From positions 1 to 64,000 of the forward strand of contig NZ_NBZW01000013.1 in assembly GCF_002379085.1 (NCBI RefSeq): a stretch of 64,000 nucleotides of DNA. The letters run 5' to 3'. Numbering within the stretch: the first letter of the stretch is position 1; each line of letters opens with the position of its first letter. The notes under the pieces were generated by a model. That model was not told the DNA's origin and did not search any database. It worked only from the letters and a program-made list of their open reading frames with translations. The position numbers and the translations under genes are program-made. This DNA comes from Polaromonas sp. AET17H-212 (GTDB lineage Bacteria > Pseudomonadota > Gammaproteobacteria > Burkholderiales > Burkholderiaceae_C). This document shows, piece after piece, positions 18,324-62,440 of the stretch.

Positions 18324-18388
18324 TGCTATTGATTCAATAGCTGCTGGCGCTCGTGTTTATTGGGCCGGAGGCCGATTTTGCATGTAAA
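18324..18388 (+). repeat. interspersed repeat family, copy 1
   Basis: Starts with the hairpin GCTATTGATTCAATAGC, then TGCTGGCGC, GTGTTTATTGGGC, GGAGGCCGATTTTG and GTAAA. It lies just after the stop of the + strand Bug gene. It is one of at least ten related copies in the window, all reading in the same direction. Confidence 0.85.
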
Positions 18389-18405
18389 CAGCGCGCAGCG
18401 CCCCA

Positions 18406-19311
18406 TCAGGTGCGCTGGCCGTGCGCCGCCAGGTGCTCGGCCAGCAACTGGGCCGAGGGTGACAGCGCCGCGGCATCGCGATAACAGATGATGAAGCGCC
18501 GCTGCGCCCAGGGCTCGGCCATGGGCACCATGGTCAGGCCGTAGGCTTCGGCGTAGATCTCGGCCACCTCGCGCGGCACCAGGCTGATCGCCAGCCCGGC
18601 GCGCACCACGCGCAGCGCGGCCTCGAAGTTGGCAACGATCACCCGCTGGCTCACGCTGCGCCCCAGCCGCGCCGCGGCGCGCTGCAGCATCACCTGTACC
18701 GCGCTGGCCACCGGCATGCTCACATGTTCGTAGTCCAGCGTGTCCTCGAAGCGCAGGCTTTGGCGTTGGGCCAGCGCGTGCTGTTTGGGCACCACCATGC
18801 ACAGGTGGTCGCTGCGGTAGGGGCGTGACTGCAGCGGCCCCAGGTCCACCGCGTCCCAGCAGATGCCCAGCGAGGCCGTGCCGTCGCGCACGCCGCGCAC
18901 CACCTCCGGGCTCACGCGTTCTTCCATGTCCACCTGGATGTTGGCGTGCGCCGGCAGTTGCAGGAAAGACGCCACGTCGTCGGCCAGCGACTCGGCCATG
19001 GCCGAGGCCGAGGCCAGGATACGCACCTGCCCGCGTACACCTGCCGCATAGGCCTCCATGTCGCGTTCGATGCGCGCCGCGCTGGCCAGCATGGCGCGCG
19101 CGTGTTCCAGCAGGGTCTGCCCGGCGGCGGTGGGTTCCACGCCATGGCGCTTGCGTGTCAGGATGGGCGTACCCACGGTCTGCTCCAGCTGCGCCAGCCG
19201 CTTGCTGATGGCCGAGCCGACGATGCTGGCCTTTTCGCCGGCGCGCGCGATGTTGCCGGTTTCGCAGACGGAAACAAACAGCCGCAGGGTGGTGAGGTCC
19301 AGGTCGCGCAT
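18406..19311 (-). CDS. LysR-family transcriptional regulator
   Basis: A 301-residue LysR protein. The HTH (about 3-62) reads LTTLRLFVSVCETGNIARAG, then SAISKRLAQLEQTVGTPILTR; the C-terminal part is a periplasmic-binding-like effector domain. The ATG at 19311 gives the standard LysR start. It is divergent from the HMG-CoA-lyase-like gene, and a perfect inverted repeat lies between the two, so it probably controls the lyase/CoA-transferase/Bug operon. Confidence 0.9.
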   Translation of the reverse strand: MRDLDLTTLRLFVSVCETGNIARAGEKASIVGSAISKRLAQLEQTVGTPILTRKRHGVEPTAAGQTLLEHARAMLASAARIERDMEAYAAGVRGQVRILASASAMAESLADDVASFLQLPAHANIQVDMEERVSPEVVRGVRDGTASLGICWDAVDLGPLQSRPYRSDHLCMVVPKQHALAQRQSLRFEDTLDYEHVSMPVASAVQVMLQRAAARLGRSVSQRVIVANFEAALRVVRAGLAISLVPREVAEIYAEAYGLTMVPMAEPWAQRRFIICYRDAAALSPSAQLLAEHLAAHGQRT

Positions 19312-19332
19312 GGTGATGTGCCTTGATATTCC

Positions 19333-19359
19333 ATTTTGGAAACTTACACGTTCCAAAAT
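19333..19359. promoter_or_regulatory. candidate LysR operator (9-bp inverted repeat)
   Basis: ATTTTGGAA at 19333-19341 and TTCCAAAAT at 19351-19359 are perfect inverted arms nine bases apart, 22 bases upstream of the lysR start and 72 bases before the divergent lyase start. A second repeat, AAATTTC (19367-19373) and GAAATTT (19380-19386), follows. Paired sites of this sort are usual for LysR activators. Confidence 0.65.
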
Positions 19360-19430
19360 AGAGAAGAAATTTCTTTCTGGAAATTTTAAACTGCAGGCCA
19401 ACGGATCCGACCCACAACAGGAGACAAACC

Positions 19431-20399
19431 TTGGCTGCACCCATCGTCACGCGCGCCGTGTTGCCGCAGCACGCCATCATTCGCGAGATGGGCCTGCGCG
19501 ACGGCCTGCAAAGCATTGCCCAGGTGATGCCCACCGCGCAAAAACTCGAATGGCTGCGCGGCGCGTACGACGCCGGCCAGCGCGAGATCGAGGTCGGCTC
19601 CTTTGTGCCGGCACGCCTGCTGCCGCAACTGGCCGACACCGCCGAGCTGGTGGCCTTTGCCAAAACCCTGCCGGGGCTGGCCGTGTCGGTGCTGGTGCCC
19701 AACTTCAAGGGCGCCGAGCGCGCCATCGACTGCAATGCCGACCTGATGCTGGTGCCGCTGTCGGCCAGCCACGCCCACAGCCTGGCCAACCTGCGCAAGA
19801 CACCCGACGAGGTGGTGACCGAGATTGCCCGCATACGCGCGGCGCGCGACGCGGCCGGTTCGTCCACGCTGATCGAGGTCGGCATCAGCACCGCCTTCGG
19901 CTGCACGCTGCAGGGGAGGGTGGCGCCCGCCGAGGTGCTGCGCCTCGTCAAGGCCGTGCTCGACACCGGCGTGGACCGCGTGAGCCTGGCCGACACCGTG
20001 GGGTATGCCGACCCGGCCATGGTGCAGGAGCTGTTTGCGCTCACGCTGCCGGTCGCCGGCGACAAGCTCAACTGCGGCCACTTCCATGACACCCGCGGCC
20101 TCGGCCTGGCCAACGTGTATGCCGCGCTGCAGATGGGCATCACGCGTTTCGACGCCTGTCTGGGCGGCATAGGCGGTTGCCCGCATGCGCCCGGCGCCAG
20201 CGGCAACGTGGCCACCGAAGATCTGGCTTACCTGCTGGCCAGCATGGGGGTGGCCACCGGGCAGGACTTCGACCAGCTGATCGCGCTGCGCGAAAAGCTT
20301 GCCGGCTGGCTCCGCGGCGAGACCCTGCACGGCACCTTGTGGCGCGCGGGCCTGCCCAACACCATGAAGGCCGCCGATACCGCGGCCGCGCTGGCCTGA
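19431..20399 (+). CDS. HMG-CoA lyase-like acyl-CoA lyase (DRE-TIM family)
   Basis: A 322-residue TIM-barrel lyase. REMGLRDGLQ at about 19-28 carries the metal-binding aspartate and catalytic arginine, NCGHFHDTRGLGL has the histidine metal ligands, and GGIGGCPHAPGASGNVATED holds the active-site cysteine loop. Members cleave HMG-CoA or similar 3-hydroxyacyl-CoAs to acetyl-CoA and a keto acid. A TTG start at 19431 is proposed: AGGAG lies eight bases upstream and the first ATG falls inside the catalytic motif. It pairs with the CoA-transferase 28 bases downstream. Confidence 0.85.
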   Translation: MAAPIVTRAVLPQHAIIREMGLRDGLQSIAQVMPTAQKLEWLRGAYDAGQREIEVGSFVPARLLPQLADTAELVAFAKTLPGLAVSVLVPNFKGAERAIDCNADLMLVPLSASHAHSLANLRKTPDEVVTEIARIRAARDAAGSSTLIEVGISTAFGCTLQGRVAPAEVLRLVKAVLDTGVDRVSLADTVGYADPAMVQELFALTLPVAGDKLNCGHFHDTRGLGLANVYAALQMGITRFDACLGGIGGCPHAPGASGNVATEDLAYLLASMGVATGQDFDQLIALREKLAGWLRGETLHGTLWRAGLPNTMKAADTAAALA

Positions 20400-20427
20400 T
20401 CCCCGTTTCAACCCAACCGGATTCCCG

Positions 20428-21633
20428 ATGACAAGCACTGACCGCCCCGCACCGCAACCCCTGACCGGCCTGCGCGTCATCGAGTTCACCCACATGGTGA
20501 TGGGTCCGACCTGCGGCATGGTGCTGGCCGACATGGGCGCCGAGGTCATCAAGATCGAACCCATCGACGGCGACCGCACGCGCCGCCTGCTGGGCGCGGG
20601 CTCCGGCTTTTTCCCCATGTTCAACCGCAACAAGAAAAGCATAGGCATCGACCTGCACAGCGAGGCCGGCGCCGCGCTGGCGCGCAAGCTCTGCGCCGGC
20701 GCCGACGTGGTGGCCGAGAACTTCAAGCCCGGCACCATGGCCAAGTACGGCCTCGACTACGCCGCGCTGAGCCAGGTCAACCCGCGCGTGATCTATGTGA
20801 GCCACAAGGGTTTTCTGCCCGGCCCGTACGACCACCGCACCGCGCTCGACGAGGTGGTGCAGATGATGGGCGGCCTGGCCTACATGACGGGCCGGCCCGG
20901 CGACCCGCTGCGCGCCGGCACCAGCGTCAACGACATCATGGGCGGGCTGTTCGGCGCCATTGGTGCGCTGGGCGCGCTGATCCAGCGCGGCATCAGCGGC
21001 AAGGGCATGGAAGTGCAGTCGGCGCTGTACGAAAACAATGTTTTCCTCATGGGCCAGCACATGCTGCAGTTCGCCATGACGGGCAAACACCCGGCGCCCA
21101 TGCCCGCACGCGACAACCCCTGGGCGGTGTACGACGTGTTCACGGTGAAAGACGGCGAGCAGATTTTCCTGGCGGCGGTCAGCGACGCGCAGTGGCAGAC
21201 CTTTTGCGACGTGCTTGGTTTCCCCGACCTGAAAGCCGAGCCCGAACTCGCCACCAACAACCTGCGCGTGGCCCTGCGCCCGCGCCTGCTCAAGACGATT
21301 GCCGAACGCATTGCCGGGCGCAGCGCCGCCGAGCTGTCGGCCATCATGGAACAAGCCGGCCTGCCGTTTGCGCCCATCCGCCGGCCCGAAGACCTGCTGG
21401 ACGACGAACACCTGCTGGCCACCGGCGGCCTGGCCGACGTGCGCCTGCCCGACGGCCCGAAAGCCGGCGAGAGCGTCAAGACCACGCTGTTTCCCATCAC
21501 CATGGGCGGCCAGCGCCTGGGCGTGCGCCTGCACCCGCCGCGCCTGGGCGAACACACGCGCGAGCTGCTGGAAGGCCTGGGCCTGGCTGGCGCCGAGATC
21601 GACGCGCTGCGGGACCAGGCCGTGGTGGCCTGA
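20428..21633 (+). CDS. CaiB/BaiF family (class III) CoA-transferase
   Basis: A 401-residue CoA-transferase. Seen are LTGLRVIEFTHMVMGPTCGM, ADMGAEVIKIEPIDGD, FNRNKKSIGIDL, the NFKPGTMAKYGLDY motif, and the catalytic-aspartate region YDHRTALDEVVQMMGG. It would activate a free acid by CoA transfer from a donor such as succinyl-CoA. With the upstream lyase it makes a two-step route: acid to acyl-CoA, then cleavage. Substrate is unknown; citramalate- or methylglutarate-type acids are reasonable guesses. Confidence 0.88.
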   Translation: MTSTDRPAPQPLTGLRVIEFTHMVMGPTCGMVLADMGAEVIKIEPIDGDRTRRLLGAGSGFFPMFNRNKKSIGIDLHSEAGAALARKLCAGADVVAENFKPGTMAKYGLDYAALSQVNPRVIYVSHKGFLPGPYDHRTALDEVVQMMGGLAYMTGRPGDPLRAGTSVNDIMGGLFGAIGALGALIQRGISGKGMEVQSALYENNVFLMGQHMLQFAMTGKHPAPMPARDNPWAVYDVFTVKDGEQIFLAAVSDAQWQTFCDVLGFPDLKAEPELATNNLRVALRPRLLKTIAERIAGRSAAELSAIMEQAGLPFAPIRRPEDLLDDEHLLATGGLADVRLPDGPKAGESVKTTLFPITMGGQRLGVRLHPPRLGEHTRELLEGLGLAGAEIDALRDQAVVA

Positions 21634-21680
21634 ACCGCCGTTGAAGAGTGAGTGAATTGCAAAACCAAAGAAGGAGACAA

Positions 21681-22685
21681 ATGATGAAAACCGTAGAACA
21701 ACACATGCTGTCACGCCGCAACGCCCTGGCCGCCCTGGGCGGCCTCGGCCTGGGCGCCGCAGGCCTGTCGCTGGGCGGTGCCGCCCATGCCCAGTCCGAC
21801 AAGGTGGTACGTTTCATTCTGCCCATCAGCGCCGGCTCGGGGGTGGACACCATCGTCCGCGCCTCCAGCGCGGCGCTGTCCAAAGCGCTGGGCCAGACGG
21901 TGGTGATCGAGAACCAGCCCGGCGCCGGCGGCCTGGTCGGCACCTCGGCCATGATCAAGTCGCCGCCCGACGGCCAGACGCTGAGCGTGGTCTCCAACAA
22001 CCACGTGATCTACCCGAGCGTGCTCAAGTCCGTGCCCTTCGACCCGCTCAACGACATCACCCCGATTGCCGTGCTGGGCGCCACCCCCATGGTGCTGGTG
22101 GTCAATTCGAAGCTGCCGGTCAAGGACCTCAAGGAATTCATTGCCCTGCTCAAGGCCAGCCCCGGCAAGTACAACTACGCCTCGTCGGGCAACGGCACCA
22201 TCCTGCATCTGGCGGCCGAGATCTTCAAGGACCTGACGCGCACGTTTTCCACCCACATTCCCTACCGCGGCTTCGGCCCGATGATGCAGGACATCGTCGG
22301 CGGCCAGGTGGACTGGGGCGTGGGTGCGCTGCCGGCGGTGGCGGGCCAGGTCAAGGCGGGCAACCTGCGCGCCCTGTGTATTGCCTCGCTGGCGCGCAGC
22401 CCGGCCGCACCCGACATTCCGACCTCGGCCGAGGCGGGCCTGCCGTTCTACGTGGTCGAAGGCTGGTTTGCCGCCGTGGGCCCCAAGGGCATGAGCGCCG
22501 AGAACGTCAGCCGCATCCACGCCGCCTTCTCCACGGCTTTCGCCACGCCCGAGGTGAAGGAAGCCATGGCCAAGCAGGGCAACATCATCAAGGTGTCCAC
22601 GCCCGAAGCGGCGAAAGAGTTCTTCGCCAGCGAGCTCAAGCGTTACGCCCGCGTCGTCAAAAGTGCCGGGGTGGTGCCGCAGTAA
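21681..22685 (+). CDS. Bug/TctC-family solute-binding protein
   Basis: A 334-residue receptor. AAGGAG lies before ATG 21681 (a second ATG follows at once). The leader contains SRRNALAALGGLGLGAAGL and ends in AHAQ, so Tat or Sec export is possible. The Bug region reads VVRFILPISAGSGVDTIV, and IPYRGFGPMMQDIVGGQ follows. It probably binds the acid used by the preceding CoA-transferase and lyase. No membrane subunit is present. Confidence 0.9.
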   Translation: MMKTVEQHMLSRRNALAALGGLGLGAAGLSLGGAAHAQSDKVVRFILPISAGSGVDTIVRASSAALSKALGQTVVIENQPGAGGLVGTSAMIKSPPDGQTLSVVSNNHVIYPSVLKSVPFDPLNDITPIAVLGATPMVLVVNSKLPVKDLKEFIALLKASPGKYNYASSGNGTILHLAAEIFKDLTRTFSTHIPYRGFGPMMQDIVGGQVDWGVGALPAVAGQVKAGNLRALCIASLARSPAAPDIPTSAEAGLPFYVVEGWFAAVGPKGMSAENVSRIHAAFSTAFATPEVKEAMAKQGNIIKVSTPEAAKEFFASELKRYARVVKSAGVVPQ

Positions 22686-22708
22686 GTGGCCCGGGAGCGC
22701 TGCGTCGC

Positions 22709-22770
22709 TCCTGATTTGATAGCTGCTTGCGTCCGAAGGTATTGGGTTGGAGGCTATTTTGGCTTGTAAA
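22709..22770 (+). repeat. interspersed repeat family, copy 2
   Basis: TCCTGATTTGATAGCTGCTTGCGTC, then TATTGGGTTGGAGGCTATTTT and GGCTTGTAAA, stated here in pieces. It lies 23 bases after the Bug stop, between convergent genes, in the common + orientation. Confidence 0.85.
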
Positions 22771-22783
22771 AAACTGCATCGCC

Positions 22784-24331
<1,548 letters not shown>

Positions 24332-24479
24332 GGCGCCAGTATCGCCGCGCCGGCTGCGCGTGCCAACCGCCGTATCTGTCAGCTCGACGCCCCACCCGCA
24401 CCCGCGCCCCAGGCACCATCCACCATCCTGTGGCAGACTGCCTCCCACCGAACGCACCCACCCAACCACACAAGACCCC

Positions 24480-25115
24480 ATGACCATCCAGCTCTACGCT
24501 TTCGACACCCCCAACGGCCGCAAGATCAGCATCGCCCTCGAAGAAATGGGCCTGCCCTACGAGGTGCACGTGGTGGACATCACCAAGGGCGAGCAGACCG
24601 CGCCAGAGTTCCTGAAGATCAGCCCCAACAACAAGATCCCCGCCATCATCGACCCCGACGGCCCGGGCGGCCAGCCCATCAGCGTCTTCGAGTCCGGCGC
24701 CATCCTGTATTACCTGGGCGAAAAGACCGGCAAGTTCTGGCCGCAGGACCTGCGCGCCCGCGTGCCCGTGATGGAATGGCTGATGTTCCAGGTGGGCGGC
24801 TTCGGCCCCATGCCCGGCCAGGTGCACCACTTCGCCGGACTGACCAACGAAGCCGACCGCCGCTACGGCCTGGAGCGCTTCATGGCCGAAACAAAACGCC
24901 TCTACGGGGTGATGGACCGCCGCCTGGCCGACCATGCCTTCTTTGCAGGCGAAGAAATTTCAATCGCCGACTTCGCCATCGTCGGCTGGGCCTGGCGGCA
25001 TGAGCGGCACAAGATTGATCTGGCGGATTTCCCGCATGTGCAGCGGTGGTACCGGGGGATGATGGCGCGGCCTGCGGTGGCGCGGGGGCTTGGGGTGGCT
25101 CTGCGGCGAGCTTAA
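24480..25115 (+). CDS. glutathione S-transferase (YfcG/Ure2-like)
   Basis: A 211-residue GST. The N-terminal thioredoxin-like domain has YAFDTPNGRKISIALEEMGL with the likely active-site Thr/Asn pair, NNKIPAIIDPDG with the cis-proline, and FESGAILYYLG. The C-terminal helical domain follows. The TPNGRK motif is that of the disulfide-bond reductase group (YfcG, YghU). It is divergent from the ABC fusion, with a 148-bp spacer. Confidence 0.88.
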   Translation: MTIQLYAFDTPNGRKISIALEEMGLPYEVHVVDITKGEQTAPEFLKISPNNKIPAIIDPDGPGGQPISVFESGAILYYLGEKTGKFWPQDLRARVPVMEWLMFQVGGFGPMPGQVHHFAGLTNEADRRYGLERFMAETKRLYGVMDRRLADHAFFAGEEISIADFAIVGWAWRHERHKIDLADFPHVQRWYRGMMARPAVARGLGVALRRA

Positions 25116-25257
25116 ACAGATGATTTGACGGCCTCAAAGTGATCCAAAGATGAGTGGCCTTGGTTAATCGTATCGCCCGCGGGTGCGCCACACCACTGAT
25201 TACGACCTTCGCTATCAAATACACGCTAGTTCGTCGATGGATCCGGCCGTCCCGTGA

Positions 25258-26589: not shown

Positions 26590-26843
26590 TCATCCATGGA
26601 GAAAACCAACATGCAACGCAGAACGTCTACGTGGTGCGCGTCTTTGTGCAATTGTGTGCAGCGCTGCTGGACCACAAAGCGCTCGCGGACAAACTGACCG
26701 CGCTGGAGCGGCGCGTTTCACACCACGACAATTCCCTAATCGAAGTAATTGATGTCATTCGCGCCTTGATGGCCCAGCCCAAAGCGGCCAACCGGCAGAG
26801 TGGTTTTACCGCAGACTTGTCGGCGAAGGCTGCCGATCGCTAG
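26590..26843 (+). pseudogene. ORF6N-domain protein, C-terminal remnant
   Basis: The frame ending at 26843 reads ATQNVYVVRVFVQLCAALLD, then KLTALERRVSHHDNS and IDVIRALMAQP. This is the end of ORF6N (phage Rha/antirepressor-like) proteins, which run ...RAIQVN-I-VVRAFVQLR... and finish ...IRQLMAPP. The N-terminal DNA-binding domain and any normal start are missing. It is a decayed phage- or element-derived gene and supports the view that this region receives foreign DNA. Confidence 0.65.
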
Positions 26844-26899
26844 TGTTTGGATAGCTGCTGGCTGTCGTGTTTATTGGGCTACAGCCGTTTTATTTGTAT
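26844..26899 (+). repeat. interspersed repeat family, copy 3
   Basis: TGTTTGGATAGCTGCTGGCT, CGTGTTTATTGGGCTACAGC and CGTTTTATTTGTATG follow each other directly after the ORF6N remnant. The 5' hairpin arm is eroded in this copy. Confidence 0.8.
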
Positions 26900-27026
26900 G
26901 AATAATTTCGCTGAATGCGGCCATTCAAAGGCATGGAACAGGCCTGCAGGTGCTGAAGCGCATAACATGCGCTTGATCCTTGTTGAGAGGATTCGACCCT
27001 GCCCATCGGCCCGGAAATACCAAGAC

Positions 27027-27398
27027 ATGAACAACGATCTCCCCTCCCTGACCCAGTCCCTGCGCGACTTCGCCCAGGCGCGCGACTGGGAGCAGTTTCA
27101 CTCGCCCAAGAACCTGGCGTCGGCCCTGTCGGTGGAAGCGGCGGAGCTGCTGGAGCACTTCCAGTGGCTGACGGAAGAACAGAGCCGCACCTTGGCCGCA
27201 CCCAAAAAGGCCGAGGTGGCCGCCGAGGCCGCCGATGTTTTGCTGTACCTGCTGCAGCTCTGCGACAAGCTGCAGATTGACCTGCTGGAAGCGGCGCGGC
27301 TGAAGCTGGTCGTTAATGCCGGCAAGTACCCGGTGGACAGTGCCCGCGGCTCGAGCCAGAAATACACGGAGCTCACCGACCCGAAGCAGGGTGGCTGA
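27027..27398 (+). CDS. MazG-like nucleotide pyrophosphohydrolase (dCTPase/RS21-C6 type)
   Basis: A 123-residue all-alpha pyrophosphohydrolase. The metal-binding pattern is visible as SVEAAELLEHFQW (about 36-48) and EVAAEAADVLLYLLQLCDKL (about 63-82), the ExxE...ExxD layout of MazG-like enzymes. The FHSPKNLA and KYPVDSARGSS stretches are typical of the RS21-C6/dCTP pyrophosphatase group, which clears non-canonical or excess dNTPs. ATG 27027 gives the family-length protein. It is flanked on both sides by copies of the interspersed repeat. Confidence 0.87.
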   Translation: MNNDLPSLTQSLRDFAQARDWEQFHSPKNLASALSVEAAELLEHFQWLTEEQSRTLAAPKKAEVAAEAADVLLYLLQLCDKLQIDLLEAARLKLVVNAGKYPVDSARGSSQKYTELTDPKQGG

Positions 27399-27411
27399 GG
27401 GCGCGCGTTAC

Positions 27412-27472
27412 TCCTGATTTGATAGCTGCCTGAGCAATGGGTATAAGGGCCGGGAGCCGGTTTGGCTTGCAG
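27412..27472 (+). repeat. interspersed repeat family, copy 4
   Basis: CTCCTGATTTGATAGCTGCC, then GGGTATAAGGGCCGGGAGCC and GGTTTGGCTTG. It is 13 bases after the MazG-like stop and most similar to copy 2 at its 5' end. Confidence 0.8.
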
Positions 27473-27508
27473 CGTTGAGAGCGAAAATCGGCCCTGGCGA
27501 GGCCAGGC

Positions 27509-28072
27509 TCAGAACAGCCTGACCCACCACAGGCGCAGGCGCATGCCCAGCTCGGTGGTGTAGCCGGCGCTGGCGCTGCGCAGCCGGCCTTGCCCGTCAA
27601 TCACCACAAAAGAGGGCACCGACTGGAAGCCGAAGGCGCGCGTCAGGTCGCCACGCGCATCGACGGCGGTTTGCCAGGGCAACTGGCGCTGTTGCTGTAC
27701 CTGCCTGACCTTGTCGGCGGGGCCGGACTGCATGGCTACCGTGAGCACCGGCCAGTCCTGAGCCAGCCGGGTGACGCTGTTCTCTTCGGCGCGGCAGATC
27801 GGGCACCACTCGGCCCAGAAGTGCAGGGCGACCGGCTGGCCGGGGTGGGCCTGGCGCCACTGGGCCAGCGTGGTGCTGCGCGTCGTGCCGTCGGGCTGCA
27901 GGACGCTGATGGCCAGATCGGGCGCCGGCCCGGCCGGCACATGCCGCGTCTGCCAGGCCTGCACCGCAACCACGATGGCCACCAGCAGGGCCAGTTGAAC
28001 CAGATGGCTTTTCCAGTTGTTGCGCAGGTGCGCAGCCAAGCGGGTGATCAGGGTGTTCGGGGTGTTCAGCAT
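27509..28072 (-). CDS. TlpA-like membrane-anchored thioredoxin
   Basis: A 187-residue protein: one N-terminal membrane segment (HLVQLALLVAIVVAVQAW, about 23-40), then a periplasmic thioredoxin domain with the CxxC motif in HFWAEWCPICRAEE near 85-98 and the cis-proline in VPSFVVIDGQGRL. It probably reduces or oxidises disulfides outside the cytoplasm, for example in cytochrome c or copper-enzyme maturation. It is alone on the minus strand. Confidence 0.85.
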   Translation of the reverse strand: MLNTPNTLITRLAAHLRNNWKSHLVQLALLVAIVVAVQAWQTRHVPAGPAPDLAISVLQPDGTTRSTTLAQWRQAHPGQPVALHFWAEWCPICRAEENSVTRLAQDWPVLTVAMQSGPADKVRQVQQQRQLPWQTAVDARGDLTRAFGFQSVPSFVVIDGQGRLRSASAGYTTELGMRLRLWWVRLF

Positions 28073-28160: not shown

Positions 28161-28224
28161 TTTGCTATTAAATGCATAGCTGCTTGTGCCCGTGTTTATT
28201 GGGCGAGGGTTATTTTTCGAAGTG
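28161..28224 (+). repeat. interspersed repeat family, copy 5
   Basis: GCTATTAAATGCATAGC hairpin, then TGCTTGTGCC, CGTGTTTATTGGGCGAGGG and TATTTTTCGA. It lies upstream of the HTH gene, the only copy not sitting just behind a + strand gene. Confidence 0.85.
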
Positions 28225-28225
28225 A

Positions 28226-28272
28226 ACTTGCCAAGGGCAAGTAAATCATTTACATTCTGAATTTGAAATTCA
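28226..28272. promoter_or_regulatory. three tandem palindromes before the HTH/NTase operon
   Basis: ACTTGCC-AAG-GGCAAGT (28226-28242), GTAAAT-C-ATTTAC (28241-28253) and TGAATTT-G-AAATTCA (28258-28272) are each perfect inverted repeats packed into 47 bases, ending 15 bases before the start codon at 28288. They are strong operator candidates for autoregulation by the HTH protein, or form part of its promoter. Confidence 0.65.
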
Positions 28273-28287: not shown

Positions 28288-28941
28288 ATGCAGCTCAAGC
28301 CTCAAGACTTTGTAGTGGCCCTGAAGCTGGTGGCTTGGGGCGATCAGCGCTGGACATATGCGCGGCTGGCCCAAGAGCTGGGGTTGAGCGCCTCTGAGGC
28401 GCACGCCTGCATCAAGCGTGGTTTGCAGGCGGGGCTGCTGGTGCAGAACCACGAAGCTCTTGCGCCGGAGGTGGCCGCGCTGGCGGTGCACGAGCCAGCC
28501 GCCATTTACCGCGTGGCCCGGCGCAAGCGGGTCAGCGGCGAAGATGCTCCTGCCGATAACCCGGTGCGCCCCCACGCGCGCCAGCTGGCTGAGTTTGCGC
28601 TGCATGGCGCCAAATACGCTTTTGCAGCCGACAAGACGCCTTCCACGATCGGTGTGCCCACAAGCCACAGCGCCCCGGCATTTGCGGGCGTATTCGCGCC
28701 GGGGTCTGAGGATTACGTGTGGCCGCACCCCAATGGCACCATGCGTGGCATTGGCATAGAGCCACTGCACCCCAGCGTGCCGTTTGCGGCCATGCAAGAC
28801 GCCAGGCTGTATGAAATGCTGGCCCTGTTTGACGCCCTGCGCGTAGGCCGCGCGCGCGAGCGCGGCATGGCCATGGAGCGGCTGCAGGCTCTGATTGACC
28901 CATCCGCGCCAAAGCCGTTGAAAGGGCCTGTGCGTGGCTAA
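28288..28941 (+). CDS. winged-HTH protein, candidate antitoxin of an AbiE-like pair
   Basis: A 217-residue protein. Residues about 8-52 form an HTH (VALKLVAWGDQRWTYARLAQ, then ELGLSASEAHACIKRGLQAG). The rest is not recognised; KTPSTIGVPTSHSAPA and MRGIGIEPLHPSVPFA may be the functional core. It overlaps the downstream nucleotidyltransferase by eight bases. In AbiE-type systems the first gene is an HTH antitoxin that represses its own promoter, and tandem palindromes lie exactly there. Homology to AbiEi itself is not evident, so the role is inferred from arrangement. Confidence 0.65.
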   Translation: MQLKPQDFVVALKLVAWGDQRWTYARLAQELGLSASEAHACIKRGLQAGLLVQNHEALAPEVAALAVHEPAAIYRVARRKRVSGEDAPADNPVRPHARQLAEFALHGAKYAFAADKTPSTIGVPTSHSAPAFAGVFAPGSEDYVWPHPNGTMRGIGIEPLHPSVPFAAMQDARLYEMLALFDALRVGRARERGMAMERLQALIDPSAPKPLKGPVRG

Positions 28942-29611
28942 TCCCAACCTTGGTTTGTTGATAGGCATGGCCCAAGCGCTGGGGCCGCTGTGTGAGCGGG
29001 TGGTGTTTGTGGGTGGATGTGCCACGGGTCTTTTGCTGCCTGGCCCCAATCTGCTGGACGTGCGGCCTACAGAAGATGTCGATGGCATTGTGGAGGTGGC
29101 CACGCTGGCGGGTTACCACGCATTGGGCGATGAACTGTTGCAACGGGGCTTCAAGCAGACGATGGAGGACAACACGCCGCCATTCCGCTGGTTCTGGCAG
29201 CGCATGCAGTTGGACCTGGTGCCCCTGGACGAAAGGGTGCTTGGCTTTGCCAACCGCTGGTATCGCGCAGGGTTTGACGCTGCGGTACAAACCGAGGTGG
29301 CTCCGGGGCTGGTGCTGCGCCATTTGTCTGCGCCGTATTTTCTGGCATCCAAATTTGAGGCTTTCAAGGACAGGGGCCGCAATGATGTGTACACCAGCCA
29401 CGACCTGGAAGACATACTCGTCGTGATTGAAGGGCGGGCAGAGCTGGAGCAAGAACTATCAACGGCTGCAATGGATGTGCGCCAGCATGTGATGGATTGC
29501 GTCGACAAACTGCTTGCCAACCCCGATTTCAACAACGCGTTGGCCGGCTTGCTCAGTCAACCTGACAGGGAGCCGTTGGTGCGAGCCCGGCTGCAGCAGC
29601 TCACGGTGTGA
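28934..29611 (+). CDS. nucleotidyltransferase, AbiEii-like candidate toxin
   Basis: A 225-residue nucleotidyltransferase-fold protein. VFVGGCATGLL (24-34) with TEDVDGIV (D48, D50) is the hG[G/S]...DxD motif, and MQLDLVP gives a third acidic residue (D94). SKFEAFKDRGRN followed by DLEDI (about 139-161) matches the basic-acidic helix of AbiEii/AbiGii-type toxins. Such enzymes add nucleotides to tRNA in type IV toxin-antitoxin or phage-abortive systems. GTG 28934 is used, overlapping the HTH gene; the alternative ATG 28967-28969 would trim eleven residues. Lower GC than the backbone. Confidence 0.72.
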   Translation: MANPNLGLLIGMAQALGPLCERVVFVGGCATGLLLPGPNLLDVRPTEDVDGIVEVATLAGYHALGDELLQRGFKQTMEDNTPPFRWFWQRMQLDLVPLDERVLGFANRWYRAGFDAAVQTEVAPGLVLRHLSAPYFLASKFEAFKDRGRNDVYTSHDLEDILVVIEGRAELEQELSTAAMDVRQHVMDCVDKLLANPDFNNALAGLLSQPDREPLVRARLQQLTV

Positions 29612-29698
29612 GACAAGCTCGCTGGACTTGGTCTTGAGGTACAGATGTGACAGACGCTGTAGCCTGGGGGCGGAATGTGCCTTGAGATTGAGTCGAAA

Positions 29699-29760
29699 TG
29701 CTACTAAAACAATAGCTGCTCATGCTTGTTTTACCTGGGCTAGAGGCCGATTTGACATAA
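29699..29760 (+). repeat. interspersed repeat family, copy 6
   Basis: TGCTACTAAAACAATAGCTG, CTCATGCTTGTTTTACCTGG, then GCTAGAGGCCGATTTGACAT. It sits 88 bases after the nucleotidyltransferase stop and abuts a terminator hairpin. Confidence 0.82.
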
Positions 29761-29794
29761 AAAAAGCCGCCGGCAGTTGCCAGCGGCTTTTCTT
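29759..29794. terminator. bidirectional rho-independent terminator
   Basis: AAAGCCGCCGGCA (29763-29775) and TGCCAGCGGCTTT (29778-29790) form a 13-pair stem with one mismatch and a two-base loop. Seven T residues follow on the minus strand and TCTTT on the plus strand. It ends the vanAB/metE-like operon and can also stop the nucleotidyltransferase transcript. Confidence 0.88.
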
Positions 29795-34019: not shown

Positions 34020-34159
34020 ACGCTGCAACCCCCAGGCCTTGATATGCATATTTGCTATAGCTGCAAGGCGGAAATCCATCTTGCGCATCTGACCGCGCAG
34101 GGGGATAGTCCGCGGTGACCTGTTGAATGCCCCCTTTTTTCGAACCCTCTGGAGAGACC

Positions 34160-38786: not shown

Positions 38787-38805
38787 CCCTGAGGGGTGGA
38801 TGGAC

Positions 38806-38866
38806 TGCTATTTAATTGATAGCTGGTTGCGTACGGTAGACAAGGGCTGGAGGCACTTTTGATGCA
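38806..38866 (+). repeat. interspersed repeat family, copy 7
   Basis: GCTATTTAATTGATAGC hairpin, then TGGTTGCGTACG, GACAAGGGCTGGAGGCA and CTTTTGATGCAT. It lies 20 bases after the livF stop and before the next Bug gene. Confidence 0.85.
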
Positions 38867-38953
38867 TGGCCCTGCCGGCGCAACCCGTGGCCGGCTCCGG
38901 CCGCGCCGCCGGATGGACCAAAATGGCGCGATGCCAACGATCGCAAGGACACC

Positions 38954-49850: not shown

Positions 49851-49916
49851 TTTGCTATCTTATTGATAGCGTTTGGCGTATATTCCACAATGGATGACGG
49901 CCTTTTTTCTTGAAAA
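49851..49916 (+). repeat. interspersed repeat family, copy 8
   Basis: GCTATCTTATTGATAGC hairpin, then GTTTGGCGTATATTCCAC, GATGACGGCCTTTTTTCTTG. It lies 19 bases after the aldo/keto reductase stop and is the most diverged in its middle part. Confidence 0.75.
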
Positions 49917-51118: not shown

Positions 51119-51342
51119 TCATGGCAGGTCGGTCAGTGCGCGCAGGCCGGCCTGCATCGCCGCTTCCGGCGGGGTGGTGTTGGCGCTGTCCTCGATGAAG
51201 TCGCCGAGGTGCGAATCGTCGTCGTCACCGATTGGCGTTTCCATCGAGATCGGCTCTCTGGCGATCTTCATGGGCTTCATGATCTTGCGGATATTGTCTT
51301 GCGGAATCGCCGTCTTCTCGGCCAGGATGCTGGCGTCGGGCT
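51119..51342 (-). pseudogene. internal fragment of rpoD (sigma-70 region 3), duplicated
   Basis: 51140-51342 repeats rpoD 55097-55290 with about a dozen substitutions and one 9-base in-frame insertion (GGCTTCATG near 51271). It keeps the reading frame: [20 protein letters not shown], then the [13 protein letters not shown] and DSANT...EAAMQAGLR parts, then TDLP and a stop at 51119. It corresponds to rpoD residues about 664-728 and lacks both ends. It begins exactly where the upstream TPR regulator ends. It has no start codon context, so no product is expected. Confidence 0.9.
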
Positions 51343-53408: not shown

Positions 53409-53438
53409 GGGCTCCATCACGATCAGGAGAAATGCACA

Positions 53439-53909: not shown

Positions 53910-53993
53910 CCAGCCCACTGGCCGGTCTGTGAATTGACGGGCGCCCGCCTGGCCCGGCAGCGTGAAACTCAGCAAGCAGAAACTGGAGGTTTT

Positions 53994-54803: not shown

Positions 54804-54810
54804 GCGGTCC

Positions 54811-54852
54811 AAAAAAAGCGCCTCCACCCCTTTCAACAAGGGATGGAGGCGC
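54811..54852 (-). terminator. rho-independent terminator of rpoD
   Basis: GCGCCTCCACCCCTT (from 54818) pairs with AAGGGATGGAGGCGC (54838-54852) with one mismatch. On the minus strand the stem is followed by seven T residues (54817-54811), the correct side for rpoD. The same hairpin, without a U-run, faces the methyltransferase transcript. Confidence 0.9.
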
Positions 54853-54874
54853 CATTGGCTGATGCAGCTGCTGA

Positions 54875-57277
<2,403 letters not shown>

Positions 57278-57609
57278 GGCGAACTCCCCCGGTGTGAAAC
57301 GTTCCTCAACAGACTTGGTTCCCGGCGCCCGACTGCAGTCGGGCTACAGGCACAAAAAATGCCCGCGCCGGATGGCTGGGCATTCAGGAATCCGGCGGAC
57401 TTGAGAGGTGTCTCAAGCCCGTCAGGCTCCACAGCAAGTTGTTTGGGCGAACATTTGGTGTGCAGTCCTTGCGGGGAGGTGGCCCTTCAACCTGTGAGGT
57501 CCCGTTCTTGCGGGGGGCTGGTACCGGAGGTGCTGCTGTCGCGCTTGCCGTAGCGGAAAATCGGATTATACCCTGTTGCCTCATTTTTGGGCAACAAAAA
57601 AGGGCCAAA
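57278..57609 (-). other. dnaG-rpoD intergenic region
   Basis: 332 bases with a promoter near its dnaG end (see next entry) and a long untranslated leader for rpoD of about 280 bases. GC-rich short hairpins occur (for example around 57330-57370), but no gene and no known RNA leader are recognised. Confidence 0.6.
57565..57594 (-). promoter_or_regulatory. sigma-70 promoter of rpoD
   Basis: On the minus strand a perfect TATAAT -10 box lies at 57570-57565, with TTGCCC as a -35 candidate at 57594-57589 and an 18-base spacer. It sits 15 bases beyond the dnaG stop and would drive rpoD separately from dnaG. Confidence 0.65.
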
Positions 57610-59577
57610 TCAGCTATTTTTCAGCAGGCCGGACAATTCCTCGTAACGCTGCCTGGCGGCCGGGTCGGCCAGGACCCGGGGCAGCAAATCGACCATTTCC
57701 TGCTGGCGTTTGAGCTTGAGGAGCTGGTCCAGGATGGCGCGGACCTCGTTCCAGTCGCACTCGATGCCCTCGTGGAGCTGGGCGATCTGGTCCACCGCGT
57801 ATTTTTCCTGGGGATGTTCGCGCAGCCCCTCGCGCAGGGCCGCCCAGGGCTGCGGCCCGTGTTCGTGCAGCTGGCTTTCCAGCCAGACGAACAGCGGCCC
57901 GTGCGGGGCCGGCAGTTCCGACAACAGCACGTGTTCTTCCCCGCTGAGCTTGTCCCAGCTTTGCGGGTCGGTCAGCATCAGCCGCAGCACCCGGTCTTCC
58001 CGGCCGGCCGGCAGCACCCGCCCGGCGATGCGCCGCGGCGGGCGGCTGGCGCCGGGCTTGGCGCCGAAGCTGCGGCCGCCGGACCCGCCCGCCGCGGTCG
58101 GGGCGGGCAGCGACGCGGCGTACGCGCCTTCATCGTGCAGGTCGGCAAAGTTGCCGGAAAATTCCTCGAAATGCGGAACCGCGTCGGCGTATTCTGGCTG
58201 TTTTGGCCGCTGGCCCTTGCCCGGTGGACGCGAGTTGCTACTGTTTTTATAGTGCGGCGCGGCCGGCTGCCAGATCTGCAGCAGTTCGCGGCTGTCGATC
58301 AGCACGGTGTCGGCGATCTCGGCGAGCAACTGGTGCTTGAGCGTGCCGTCGGGCAACAGGCTCCACAGCGGGCGCGCATTGCTGGCCATGTGCGCGCGGC
58401 CTTCGGCGGTGTCCAGGTCGCAGCCTTCGCCGGCGGCGTCGAGCATGAATTTGCTCAGCGGCACGGCCTTGGCGACATAGGCGGCAAACCCTTCCTGGCC
58501 GTGTTCGCGGATGTAGCTGTCGGGGTCGTGTTCGGCCGGCAGGAACAGGAACTTGACGGTGCGCACGTCGGTGGCAAAGGGCAGGGCGGCGTCCAGCGCC
58601 TTGCGCGCGGCGCGCCGGCCGGCACTGTCACCGTCAAAGCTGAAGACCACCGCATCGGTGAAGCGGAACAGCTTTTGCACATGGTCGGCGGTGCAGGCCG
58701 TGCCCAGGGTGGCCACCGCGTTGGCAAAACCCAGCTGGGCCAGCGCCACCACGTCCATGTAGCCTTCGGTGACCAGCGCGTAGCCGTGTTCGCGCAGGGC
58801 GGTGCGCGCCTCGAACAGGCCGTAGAGCTCGCGCCCCTTGCTGAACACCGGGGTTTCCGGGGAGTTCAGGTACTTGGGTTTTTCGTCGCCCAGCACGCGC
58901 CCGCCGAAACCGATGCATTCGCCCTTGACGTTGCGGATCGGGAACATGATGCGGTCACGGAAGCGGTCGTAACGCTTGGCTTCGCCCTGCGCGTTTTCCT
59001 CCCCCGGCTCGCCGGTGATGACCAGGCCGCTTTCGACCAGCAGCGGGTCGTTGTAGTCGGGGAACACGCTGGCCAGCGCGCGCCAGCCTTCGGGCGCGTA
59101 ACCGAGGCCGAAGGTTTTGGCGATTTCGCCCGACAGGCCGCGGCCCTTGAGGTAGTCGATGGCACGCGGCGCGTTGCGCAGGTGCTTGATGTAGGCGATG
59201 CCGGCTTTTTCGAGCACGCTGGTCAAGGTGGCCTGCTGCTCGCGCGCCTGGGCGGCGCGGGCGCGCTCCTGCGGCGAGACGTCGTCCTCGGGCACCTGCA
59301 GGCCGTACTGCTGGGCCAAGTCTTTCACGGCCTCGACAAAGGTCATGCCGCCGTGTTCCATCAAAAAGCTGATGGCGTTGCCGTTTTTGCCGCAGCCGAA
59401 GCAGTGGTAGAACTGCTTGGACGGGCTGACGCTGAAAGAGGGCGATTTTTCGCCGTGGAAGGGGCACAGCCCCATGAAATTGGCGCCGCCCTTTTTGAGC
59501 TGCACGTAGCGCCCGACGATGTCCACCACGTCGGCGCGCGCCAGCAGTTCCTGGATGAATGATTGGGGAATGGCCAC
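57610..59577 (-). CDS. dnaG: DNA primase
   Basis: A 655-residue primase. The CHC2 zinc finger uses C38, H41, C59 and C62 (LCPFHGEKS ... CFGCGKNG). The TOPRIM core includes VTEGYMDVVALAQLG and FDGDSAGRRAARKALD; the DnaB-binding domain is C-terminal. GTG 59577 is taken as start since it gives the standard MAIPQSFIQELLAR opening and GGAGG lies 12 bases upstream. The open frame continues far upstream, but that part is antisense to the acyl-CoA synthetase. dnaG-rpoD is the conserved macromolecular synthesis pair; rpsU is not seen here. Confidence 0.96.
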   Translation of the reverse strand: MAIPQSFIQELLARADVVDIVGRYVQLKKGGANFMGLCPFHGEKSPSFSVSPSKQFYHCFGCGKNGNAISFLMEHGGMTFVEAVKDLAQQYGLQVPEDDVSPQERARAAQAREQQATLTSVLEKAGIAYIKHLRNAPRAIDYLKGRGLSGEIAKTFGLGYAPEGWRALASVFPDYNDPLLVESGLVITGEPGEENAQGEAKRYDRFRDRIMFPIRNVKGECIGFGGRVLGDEKPKYLNSPETPVFSKGRELYGLFEARTALREHGYALVTEGYMDVVALAQLGFANAVATLGTACTADHVQKLFRFTDAVVFSFDGDSAGRRAARKALDAALPFATDVRTVKFLFLPAEHDPDSYIREHGQEGFAAYVAKAVPLSKFMLDAAGEGCDLDTAEGRAHMASNARPLWSLLPDGTLKHQLLAEIADTVLIDSRELLQIWQPAAPHYKNSSNSRPPGKGQRPKQPEYADAVPHFEEFSGNFADLHDEGAYAASLPAPTAAGGSGGRSFGAKPGASRPPRRIAGRVLPAGREDRVLRLMLTDPQSWDKLSGEEHVLLSELPAPHGPLFVWLESQLHEHGPQPWAALREGLREHPQEKYAVDQIAQLHEGIECDWNEVRAILDQLLKLKRQQEMVDLLPRVLADPAARQRYEELSGLLKNS

Positions 59578-59748
59578 GGCTGTATTGTGCCTCCAGCGCC
59601 GGATTTTCCCCGAAACCGCCCGGAGCCAACCGGCCGTCCGGCCGCCCGCGCCGCACCGGGCCGCGGCCCCGGTCTGAGGCGGGTCAAGGCCGGGCGCCGG
59701 GCTGCGGCTACCATGGCGCACAGACCGCCCAACCCCGAGGAGACTTTG

Positions 59749-61395
59749 ATGCCCCGCATTTTTGACCAGGACCTGCCCCGCAACGAGGCGAATTACGCCG
59801 CGCTGTCGCCGCTGGCCTTTATTGAGCGCACCGCCGAGGTCTACCCGGACCGGCTGGCGGTGGTGCATGGCGGCCTGCGCCGCAGCTGGGCCGAGGTCTT
59901 CACGCGCTGCCGGCAACTGGCCAGTGCGCTGCAGCGGCACGGCATAGTCAAGGGCGATACGGTGGCCGTGATGCTGCCCAACACCCCGCCCATGGTCGAG
60001 GCGCACTTCGGCATTCCGGTGACCGGGGCGGTGCTCAATGCGCTGAACACCCGGCTCGACCCCGAAACCATTGCCTTCATGCTGGACCACGGCGAGGCCA
60101 GGGTGGTCATCGTCGATCCCGAGTTTGCCGGCGTCATGAAAAAGGCGCTGGCCCTGCGCCAATCGAGTGCGCCGCTGCTGGTCATCGACGTGGAAGACGC
60201 GCTGTACACCGGGCCGGTCGAGCACATCGGCAGCATCCGTTACGACGAGTTCCTGGCCAGCGGCGACGGCGCTTTTGCCTGGCGCCAGCCCGACGACGAA
60301 TGGGACGCGATTGCACTGAACTACACCAGCGGCACCACCGGCAACCCCAAGGGCGTGGTTTACCACCACCGCGGCGCGGCGCTTAACGCGGTGTCCAACA
60401 TCCTCGAGTGGGACATGCCCAAACACGCGGTCTACCTGTGGACGCTGCCGATGTTTCACTGCAACGGCTGGTGTTTCCCCTGGACGGTGGCGGCGCGTGC
60501 CGGCGTCAACGTCTGCCTGCGCCGGGTCGAGCCGCAGGCGATTTTCGACGCGATCCGCCAGCACGGCGTGACCCACTACTGCGGCGCGCCCATCGTGCAC
60601 GGCCTGCTGGTCAACTCGCCGGCCAGCATGAAGCAGGGCCTGCCGCGCGGCGTGAAAGCCATGGTGGCCGGCGCGGCACCGCCGGCCTCCATGATCGAGG
60701 GCATGGAGGCGCTGGGGTTTGACCTGACCCATGTCTATGGCCTGACCGAGGTGTACGGCCCGGCCACGGTGTGCGCCGCGCAGGACGGCTGGGAAAAGCT
60801 CGACATCGGCGAGCGCGCCCGCCTCAACGCGCGCCAGGGCGTGCGTTATCACCTGGAGCGCGATGTGCGCGTGCTCGATGCGCAGACCCTGCAGCCGGTG
60901 CCGCAAGACGGCGAGACCATGGGCGAGATCATGTTCCGGGGCAACATCGCGATGAAGGGCTATCTGAAAAATCCCAAAGCGACCGAAGAAGCTTTTGCCG
61001 GCGGCTGGTTCCACAGCGGCGACCTGGCGGTGATGTACCCCGACGGCTACATCAAGATCAAGGACCGCAGTAAGGACGTGATCATCTCCGGCGGCGAAAA
61101 CATCTCCTCGATCGAGGTCGAAGACGTGCTTTACCGCCACCCCGACGTGCTGGCCGCTGCCGTGGTGGCCAAGCCTGACGAACGCTGGGGCGAAACCCCG
61201 TGCGCCTTTGTCGAGCTCAAGGCCGGCGCGACGGCGACCAAGGAGGACATCGTGGCGCACTGCAAGAAACACCTGGCCGGCTTCAAGGTGCCGCGCGCGG
61301 TGGTGTTTGGCGAGCTGCCCAAGACCAGCACCGGCAAGATCCAGAAGTTCGAGCTGCGCAAGCTGGCCGGTTCGGTGGCGGCGATCGATGTGTGA
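59749..61395 (+). CDS. acyl-CoA synthetase (AMP-forming), DmdB/medium-chain type
   Basis: A 548-residue ligase. The ATP-binding TSGTTGNPKGVVYHHRGA is near residue 185, then VYGLTEVYGPATVC, FHSGDLAVMYPDGYIKIKDR, SGGENISSIEVEDVLYRHPD and the catalytic-lysine motif TSTGKIQKFELR. ATG 59749 has GAGGAG upstream. The AGAAPPASM and WTLPMFHCNGWCFPW stretches are like those of medium-chain and methylmercaptopropionate-CoA ligases (DmdB). It is divergent from dnaG and probably a fatty or sulfur-containing acid activator. Confidence 0.88.
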   Translation: MPRIFDQDLPRNEANYAALSPLAFIERTAEVYPDRLAVVHGGLRRSWAEVFTRCRQLASALQRHGIVKGDTVAVMLPNTPPMVEAHFGIPVTGAVLNALNTRLDPETIAFMLDHGEARVVIVDPEFAGVMKKALALRQSSAPLLVIDVEDALYTGPVEHIGSIRYDEFLASGDGAFAWRQPDDEWDAIALNYTSGTTGNPKGVVYHHRGAALNAVSNILEWDMPKHAVYLWTLPMFHCNGWCFPWTVAARAGVNVCLRRVEPQAIFDAIRQHGVTHYCGAPIVHGLLVNSPASMKQGLPRGVKAMVAGAAPPASMIEGMEALGFDLTHVYGLTEVYGPATVCAAQDGWEKLDIGERARLNARQGVRYHLERDVRVLDAQTLQPVPQDGETMGEIMFRGNIAMKGYLKNPKATEEAFAGGWFHSGDLAVMYPDGYIKIKDRSKDVIISGGENISSIEVEDVLYRHPDVLAAAVVAKPDERWGETPCAFVELKAGATATKEDIVAHCKKHLAGFKVPRAVVFGELPKTSTGKIQKFELRKLAGSVAAIDV

Positions 61396-61407
61396 TGCGA
61401 TGCTGGA

Positions 61408-61470
61408 TTGCTATCGAAAAGTAGCATCTTGCGCGCGTCCGGCAAGGGTTTGAGGCGTATTTGATGTTGA
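61408..61470 (+). repeat. interspersed repeat family, copy 9
   Basis: GCTATCGAAAAGTAGC hairpin, then ATCTTGCGCGCGTCCGGCAA, GGGTTTGAGGCGTATTTGAT. The hairpin loop has changed but the arms still pair (with one G-T). It lies 12 bases after the ligase stop. Confidence 0.8.
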
Positions 61471-61483
61471 ACAGGCCGCTGCC

Positions 61484-62395
61484 ATGACCCCCGGACCCCA
61501 GGCCGCCTATGTGATCCGGCACCCCGGCGCCTTTGCGTTGCGCGTGTTGCTGGGCTTTCGCGCCAACCAGGGCCTGCTGCTCGCGGGGGCGGTGGCTTAT
61601 TACGCCTTGCTGTCGATTGTTCCGCTGCTGATCCTGATGGCGATTGCGCTGTCGCATGTGATCGACCAGGCCGCCTTGCTCGAGGCGCTGGGCCGCTACA
61701 TCGGCTGGCTGGCGCCGGGCCAGACCGACTTCATCGTGGGCGAGCTGGAAAACTTTCTCGCCCATCGCGAGCTCATGGGCTGGGTGCTGCTGGCCACCAT
61801 GCTGTTTTTCAGCTCGCTGGCCTTCACGGTGCTGGAAAACGCGATGTCGGTGATTTTCCTGCACCGCGTGGCGATACGCCGCCGCCATTTCCTGGTGTCT
61901 GCGCTGCTGCCTTACGCCTACATCCTGTGCCTGGGCGTGGGCCTGCTGCTGGTGACGCTGGTCTCCGGCAGCTTCCAGGCCCTGGGCGACCAGAGCCTGG
62001 AGTTTCTGGGCTACAGCTGGTCGCTCAGCGGTTTCTCGGGCGTGTTGCTCTACCTGCTGGGCCTGGCCGGCGAGATTTTTGTGCTGACCTCGGTCTACAT
62101 GGTGATGCCGGTCGGCAAGCTCTCGCTGCGCCACGCGCTGCTGGGCGGCATCACGGCGGCGCTGCTGTGGGAAGTGACACGCCATCTGCTGGTCTGGTAC
62201 TTCGACACGCTGTCGCAGGTCGGCCTGGTGTACGGCTCGCTGACCACGGCCATCATTGTCCTGCTGAGCCTGGAACTGGCCGCCACGCTGCTGCTGCTGG
62301 GCGCGCAGGTGATTTCGGAATACGAACGCATAGGCACCGGCAAGCAGGACGCGCCGGCCGAGCCGATGCGGACCAGCGCGCTACCAAAAAAATAG
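61484..62395 (+). CDS. YihY/BrkB-family inner-membrane protein
   Basis: A 303-residue protein with about six membrane segments. LLAGAVAYYALLSIVPLLIL is the family's N-terminal helix, and MPVGKLSLRHALLGGITAAL is the conserved loop before helix five. Members were once thought to be ribonuclease BN; the actual function is unknown, possibly transport or envelope. It starts 13 bases after a repeat copy, and its own stop codon lies inside the next copy. Confidence 0.88.
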   Translation: MTPGPQAAYVIRHPGAFALRVLLGFRANQGLLLAGAVAYYALLSIVPLLILMAIALSHVIDQAALLEALGRYIGWLAPGQTDFIVGELENFLAHRELMGWVLLATMLFFSSLAFTVLENAMSVIFLHRVAIRRRHFLVSALLPYAYILCLGVGLLLVTLVSGSFQALGDQSLEFLGYSWSLSGFSGVLLYLLGLAGEIFVLTSVYMVMPVGKLSLRHALLGGITAALLWEVTRHLLVWYFDTLSQVGLVYGSLTTAIIVLLSLELAATLLLLGAQVISEYERIGTGKQDAPAEPMRTSALPKK

Positions 62396-62440
62396 CTCCT
62401 TGCGCCCGCCAGACAAGGGCTGCAGCCACTTTTTTTGTAC
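62384..62440 (+). repeat. interspersed repeat family, copy 10 (overlaps a gene end)
   Basis: ACCAAAAAAATAGCTCCTTG, then GCCAGACAAGGGCTGCAGCC and ACTTTTTTTGTAC. The TAG stop of the YihY-family gene is the TAG of the repeat's ATAGCT core, so the repeat supplies the last codons. The left hairpin arm has been lost. Confidence 0.75.

Follow-up and report, generated by a model that had tools for sequence, protein, structure and literature searches.

A large family of short dispersed repeats in Polaromonas and related genera, and its possible role as a double-stranded DNA site

Repeat copies in the window and the family they represent

The window (the whole 64-kb stretch of Polaromonas sp. AET17H-212 DNA analyzed here) contains ten plus-strand copies of a short interspersed repeat, all of which were found where a preliminary description had placed them. 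Two of them follow TctC-type genes in convergent gaps: the copy at 18322–18387 lies 3 bp past the stop codon of the gene at 17344–18318, and the copy at 22704–22769 lies 18 bp past a stop codon. In a sister genome, G004, the ortholog of the first is in the same place and 0.75 identical, and the ortholog of the second is 0.84 identical. Beside the latter ortholog (G004:C48 near 76.5 kb, locus L100) there is an extra GC-rich palindromic stretch of the CCCTCTCCC...GGGAGAGGG type, which seems to represent a different family of repeats. Two copies flank a MazG-like gene (27027–27398). The one at 26836–26901 lies 125 bp ahead of the called start, with 1.7 kb upstream of it free of called genes, and is without a syntenic anchor; the one at 27407–27472 lies 8 bp past the stop in a convergent gap and has orthologs in G004 and in a second sister genome, G248. 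Orthologs in G248 were also found for the copies at 28161–28226, in the divergent gap between a minus-strand gene (27509–28072) and a plus-strand gene (28288–28941), and at 29697–29762, 85 bp past the stop of the gene at 28967–29611 in a convergent gap. The copy at 49851–49916, 19 bp past the stop of an aldo/keto reductase gene in a convergent gap, has an ortholog in G004. The remaining three have orthologs in both sister genomes: 38804–38869, 17 bp past the stop of an ABC-transporter ATPase gene in a tandem gap; 61407–61471, 11 bp past the stop of an AMP-binding gene in a tandem gap; and 62377–62441, in a convergent gap. The last of these includes, as had been described, the stop codon of the BrkB/YihY-type gene at 61484–62395 (Pfam PF03631, BrkB, which we take to cover YihY).

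By our own gene calls, eight of the ten copies, and not nine as first stated, lie within about 90 bases downstream of a plus-strand gene. Six of these eight are between convergent genes, in gaps where a copy of either orientation would count. Nor does every copy in the window read in the plus direction: an eleventh, partial copy of 49 nt (58205–58253; 19.5 bits with the model R1 defined below) is on the minus strand inside the primase (DnaG) gene (57610–59577, assigned by Pfam), after the DnaB-binding domain, and is present in the same place in both G004 and G248. A degenerate core that had been placed near 34052 gave no R1 match at E ≤ 5. The window also contains direct repeats of another kind, at 51139–51342 and 55096–55290 (149 and 68 nt, 92–93% identical), the second within a 729-aa minus-strand gene adjoining the primase gene and, by its position, presumably rpoD; the direct repeats look like a partial duplicate of rpoD.

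R1 is a covariance model built from the ten window copies, with pairing only in the first hairpin. Its E-values for those ten copies are therefore circular, and the independent support for the family comes from the 800 kb beyond the window: of 130 matches obtained over 864 kb of the genome with a cutoff of E ≤ 0.01, 118 were there and 12 in the window. The 864 kb contained 123 full copies (at least 55 nt), a density of 142 per Mb, which extrapolates to about 660 copies per 4.65-Mb genome. When the best 150 candidates from the whole genome were scored, all 150 matched, giving at least 150 copies. Per-genome scoring used the best 150, 127, 26, or 18 candidates, and larger copy numbers are extrapolated from the 864 kb. 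The repeat unit is about 64–66 bp long and is sharply bounded, at about positions 3 and 66 of the model, with no conservation in the flanks. The order of blocks originally described, GCTAY-N7-ATAGC, TGCTTGCGC, GGGCTGGAGGCC, TTT, and AAA, is kept across the family, which carries 52.5 bits of information over 66 columns and has a mean GC content of 0.49 (range 0.34–0.71). Identity between aligned copies averaged 0.54 and reached 0.79 at best; thus no recent copying event is seen among them. Only two neighbor pairs less than 200 bp apart were present among the 123 copies, so the copies occur singly. Strong mutual information was found only between adjacent columns, a sequence pattern that suggests subfamilies. 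We conclude that the ten copies belong to a real, large, and old family.

The preliminary description mentioned similar sequences in Comamonadaceae genomes, and in the GTDB family to which the window belongs R1 indeed matched 74 of 200 genomes and, counted by genus, 53 of 126, with Polaromonas, Rhodoferax, Acidovorax, and Ottowia among the carriers. Within the genus, copy number ranged from 0 to more than 127 per genome, and 19 of 25 genomes had R1 matches; R1 found the repeat in none of 16 genomes of other families and in two of 276 genomes sampled over the class, both of the same family. These distribution searches used the best 127, 26, or 18 candidates per genome with stricter filters, and weak carriers may be missed for that reason. 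Five 50-kb stretches of Polaromonas plasmids contained 3 copies versus about 36 expected at the chromosomal density of our genome, and blastn of one copy against plasmids gave no match. The three plasmid copies (L252:26522–26587, L254:36066–36131, and L254:37421–37486) all adjoin BREX genes.

Orientation, gene context, and persistence in place

The single orientation reported for the window proved to be local. Over 864 kb there were 58 plus and 65 minus copies, and a run of ten plus copies has a probability of 0.07 under random strands. A bias relative to the neighboring genes was not found either, with 22 sense and 24 antisense copies in tandem gaps. Consistent replication polarity was absent over two genomes: among the best 150 matches, 92 of 150 agreed with one direction in one complete Polaromonas genome (p = 0.007, with the origin assumed at position 0), whereas 65 of 150 did so in the second, the opposite direction (p = 0.12); the GC skew of our own contigs was uninformative.

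Gene context was determined with a self-trained gene finder. Of the 123 copies, 84 were intergenic, 38 were inside called genes, and 1 was at an edge. Among gaps of 60–200 bp, a copy was present in 20 of 45 convergent, 21 of 164 tandem, and 1 of 56 divergent gaps (Fisher p = 1e-5 for convergent versus tandem and 7e-8 for convergent versus divergent); for all gaps of at least 60 bp the counts were 26 of 62, 40 of 263, and 8 of 94. Of the 46 tandem copies, 33 lay closer to the stop codon than to the following start. The copies thus prefer gene 3' ends and convergent gaps and are scarce in divergent gaps, a preference that may reflect nothing more than promoters not tolerating insertions. Intrinsic terminators between 17 and 36 kb were not enriched (22 versus 17.0 expected, SD 5.0).

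The variable loops and pairing arms of the hairpin had been taken to suggest selection on RNA structure. The arms did not keep pairing beyond chance (80.7% of cells paired versus 80.5% after shuffling), and there was no covariation in the stem, with both-side changes in 17 cases versus 18.6 in shuffled alignments; a second stem likewise showed no covariation relative to shuffled alignments. The ten window copies folded like their shuffles (mean z = −0.27, with one copy below −2, at −2.25). Because there was no covariation and folding was shuffle-like, selection on RNA structure is unsupported. Rfam gave no match in the window at gathering score, and at E ≤ 5 gave three weak, unrelated matches between 18 and 64 kb.

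Persistence was examined by comparing contig 5 of our genome with syntenic stretches of the two sister species, G004 and G248. All 23 copies with anchors in G004 were present there, 22 in the same orientation and the 23rd in an overlapping inverted pair. In one 124-kb region, compared in both directions, none of 116 anchored comparisons revealed an empty site (66 of 182 were without an anchor); six of the 116 fell below the search threshold, and their alignments still show homologous sequence. Orthologs were paired from model matches, with one bad pairing (102172-G004).

In 45 ortholog pairs, per-column divergence fell with conservation in the family (Spearman −0.77), the conserved columns being those of GCT, TAGC, GGG, and TTT. 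For the 29 intergenic pairs, differences were present in 35 of 482 cells in conserved columns and in 232 of 648 in free columns. Separated by genome, the intergenic comparison with G004 gave 15/263 in conserved columns, 110/349 in free columns, and 135/649 in the adjoining noncoding flank, and that with G248 gave 20/219, 122/299, and 111/414, respectively. Divergence in gaps without a copy was 0.067 (G004) and 0.130 (G248), and at 4-fold sites it was 0.120 and 0.194. In intergenic copies, therefore, the conserved columns change 3–4 times less than adjoining noncoding DNA, and the other columns do not. Within the core, GCT differed in 2 of 87 cells and TAGC in 2 of 116. Ten genic pairs gave 7/166 in conserved and 31/212 in free columns; the contrast was weaker (18/101 versus 45/137) in six pairs past 104 kb, where genes were not called. 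Since the conserved columns are slower than the flank, the core is held in place. Of the three marks of neutral repetitive DNA named in the preliminary description, two, absence of covariation and random orientation, were found, yet the repeat is not neutral (35/482 versus 232/648 in the intergenic pairs). Judged from these alignments, the same sites in sister species together with fixed letters mean that the repeat probably has a function as DNA.

Copies inside genes

The 38 copies inside genes comprised 23 in the sense and 15 in the antisense direction and were mostly read in two frames: sense 0 (15 copies) and antisense 2 (11), followed by sense 2 (7), antisense 0 (3), and two others with 1 each. 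Seven proteins with an in-frame copy were scanned, and each contains a Pfam domain (PurL, MoeA, ECH_2, PCMT, AMP-binding, penicillin amidase, and patatin); a copy is also present in frame in a primase linker.

PurL of our genome has its nearest match in Polaromonas, being 95% identical to that of Polaromonas sp. 39-63-25. At one site in purL, 15 of 80 related loci have an antisense copy; these loci come from Polaromonas, Rhodoferax, Acidovorax, Ottowia, and further relatives. Five loci have a second copy. A copy common to several genera at one site implies a deep age for the repeat. Inspection of 29 loci showed that the codon after Tyr is CAA (13) or GAA (2) in the 15 carriers and that, where Tyr-Gln occurs in the 14 non-carriers, it is CAG (6) or CAA (2), a comparison that is partly circular because carriers were picked by R1. 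Genome G003, with four R1 matches, retains the PurL peptide with the codons TAC CAG ACC TAC, whereas carriers mostly have TAT CAA; the genome-wide shares are 24% for TAT and 15% for CAA. This case of one genome and one gene suggests that the repeat depends on something in trans. At a second spot, near residue 633 of PurL, seven loci (L233–L239) and L243 have in-frame inserts of other repeat-like peptides (PLPRGEGWGEGL; RAAGAAAPSGGSEPHEVGSVG), which are absent from our genome; at a guess, the insert RAAGAAAPSGGSEPHEVGSVG might be the BRE repeat discussed below.

The first approximately 22 of the 66 profile positions of Pfam DUF1010 (PF06231) match the antisense reading of the repeat. All six places resembling DUF1010 in the 864 kb that were scanned in full coincide with a copy, and 12 of 40 in the whole genome overlap a known one; none of these 40 reaches the Pfam cut-off, and sub-threshold matches were also present in 11 of 14 control genomes. 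By sequence comparison, the start of DUF1010 is a repeat-derived peptide, and part of a Pfam family of unassigned function would thereby be accounted for. In class 1 integrons, the DUF1010 gene that lies between dfrA12 and aadA2 (1051–1341, minus strand), which we take to be gcuF/orfF, also contains a repeat copy (L251:1186–1251 of an E. coli plasmid; 32.8 bits), a hint at a Comamonadaceae chromosome as the origin of this cassette.

Known repeats and possible explanations

PMC3733652 describes REP sequences as small elements present in hundreds of copies, with a palindromic part, located behind genes in tandem and convergent gaps and sometimes within genes, and discusses a role of gyrase at the 3' ends of ORFs. 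Our repeat resembles REPs as described there in number, small size, palindromic part, and location. It differs in being longer and asymmetric, in having a stem without compensatory changes, and in occurring singly rather than in clusters. REP tags were not a feature of it: counted in 23-mers, GTAG was present in 2 of 123 copies (4.7 expected) and CGTC in 18 of 123 (9.0 expected). Unlike in REP/RAYT systems, the RAYT-like gene lacks flanking inverted copies. R1 found six matches at E ≤ 0.1 in four of 20 RAYT-like loci, none at the locus of our own genome and none on both sides of a gene, and inverted or other repeats were not found near the RAYT loci; in L091 one weak copy lies about 0.3 kb from a RAYT-like gene. 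Of 61 genomes of the genus, 60 have the RAYT-like domain, also where R1 gives no match. A RAYT was rejected as the driver because the Y1 transposase does not distinguish carrier genomes from those lacking the repeat and the sole RAYT-like gene of our genome is unflanked. That transposase (L080:3159–3857) is mostly present once per genome, without flanking repeats at the loci examined, and looks domesticated.

Two other named families were compared. The RPEs of Rickettsia, as described in PMC10969869, are elements of about 150 bp with in-frame copies in unrelated protein genes, a property shared by our repeat, which however is 64–66 bp long, is intergenic in 84 of 123 cases, and belongs to another taxon. 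The BREs (Hot et al. 2011; PMC3110155), which are found in Bordetella and in Comamonadaceae, Polaromonas among them, are 40–91 bp long, mostly intergenic, and present in some genes, as is our repeat; they have 69% GC (63.7–78.9%) and are often in tandem, in contrast to the 49% GC and single copies found here, so that the two are set apart by GC content and arrangement. The suggestion that the repeat is a MITE was not borne out: there were no terminal inverted repeats (best end-to-end identity 0.33), no target-site duplications (flank identity at most 0.35, about that of permuted pairs, with a best z of about 5 over many offsets and no coherent length), and no empty sites in the 116 anchored comparisons. 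Mattes et al. (2008, as cited in PMC10969869) reported a MITE from Polaromonas sp. JS666 that could be the same repeat. In the partly accessible literature, searched also by sequence string, no description of the repeat was found, the Mattes et al. MITE lying outside that comparison. By analogy, the repeat may work like a REP-type DNA site; membership in any named family is not claimed.

The explanation we favor, tentatively and with somewhat less than even confidence, is that this is an old REP-like dispersed repeat that now serves as a sequence-specific double-stranded DNA site. Its copies would once have spread by some copying process; a putative chromosomal protein would recognize the palindromic GCTAY-N7-RNTAGC core with a GGG/TTT arm and would act where transcription of neighboring genes ends, for example in nucleoid organization or in relief of positive supercoiling between convergent genes. 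This explanation rests on the hundreds of copies, the lack of strand bias, the preference for 3' ends and convergent gaps, the in-frame copies, the absence of recent movement in the compared region, the column constraint, and the lack of covariation. The 52.5 bits are more than a binding site seems to need and thus speak for descent by copying. Against a binding-site view, neither ComEC nor the Y1 transposase separates genomes with and without the repeat, and a pure binding-site model does not predict free columns that change faster than the flank or changes that cluster. If true, the explanation would define a class of bacterial repeat that is a retained DNA site, neither RNA structure nor active mobile DNA, and that is held in place, coding sequence included, in an environmental family that is widespread; same-genus genomes with and without the repeat make a search for the binding protein directly feasible. 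A broader version is doubtful, although conceivable: a Comamonadaceae-wide, orientation-independent DNA recognition system in which hundreds of sites, also in essential genes, would be kept for the age of genera by such a protein, and in which loss of the protein would let the sites decay while inserted peptides remain, as with PurL in G003.

The main rival to a retained DNA site is non-allelic conversion. Under it the repeat would be selfish and kept uniform by conversion or another drive, copies overwriting each other in place, and the consensus would be without cellular function; we consider this unlikely. Divergence is greater in free columns than in the flank (0.315 versus 0.208 for G004 and 0.408 versus 0.268 for G248), adjacent changes cluster (221 observed versus 147 expected), free-column identity is spread more widely than binomial (SD 0.131 versus 0.087), and in 7 of 45 ortholog pairs it is at most 0.54, the 95th percentile of paralog pairs. 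The excess and the clustering allow for some conversion between copies, but are partly due to small indels in the fixed-column alignment. Most ortholog pairs, however, are well over the paralog level (non-genic means of 0.73 and 0.58 versus 0.35), and whole-copy replacement is not obvious; the best paralog identity in the copies compared is 0.79.

It is improbable that the copies are the inert, now functionless relics of a mobile element of REP or RPE type. The repeat nature, the in-frame insertions in genes, the fit of promoter scarcity to tolerated insertion, and the range from 0 to more than 127 copies within the genus are as expected for such relics, but neutral decay should affect all columns equally, and the conserved ones are 3–4 times slower than the flank. 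The RNA element at transcript 3' ends (a terminator, stabilizer, or processing site) that had originally been proposed is very improbable. The 33 of 46 tandem copies nearer the stop than the next start and the T-rich 3' part speak for it; the orientation counts (22 sense versus 24 antisense), the absence of covariation, and the shuffle-like folding speak against it, and the copies within genes and the lack of an Rfam family at gathering score also argue against it. Least probable of all is an uptake-like sequence for natural transformation, upheld by biased DNA uptake: the uptake sequences of Pasteurellaceae and Neisseria share both orientations, coding and intergenic locations, and upkeep of a core in place, but they are much shorter than the repeat, and ComEC (PF03772) was found in 27 of 30 genomes, including all nine with no or few R1 matches. 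At G014:C12:394405–395484 and G015:C108:1011–1991 the ComEC match was split in two within a single open frame, as if it contained an insert.
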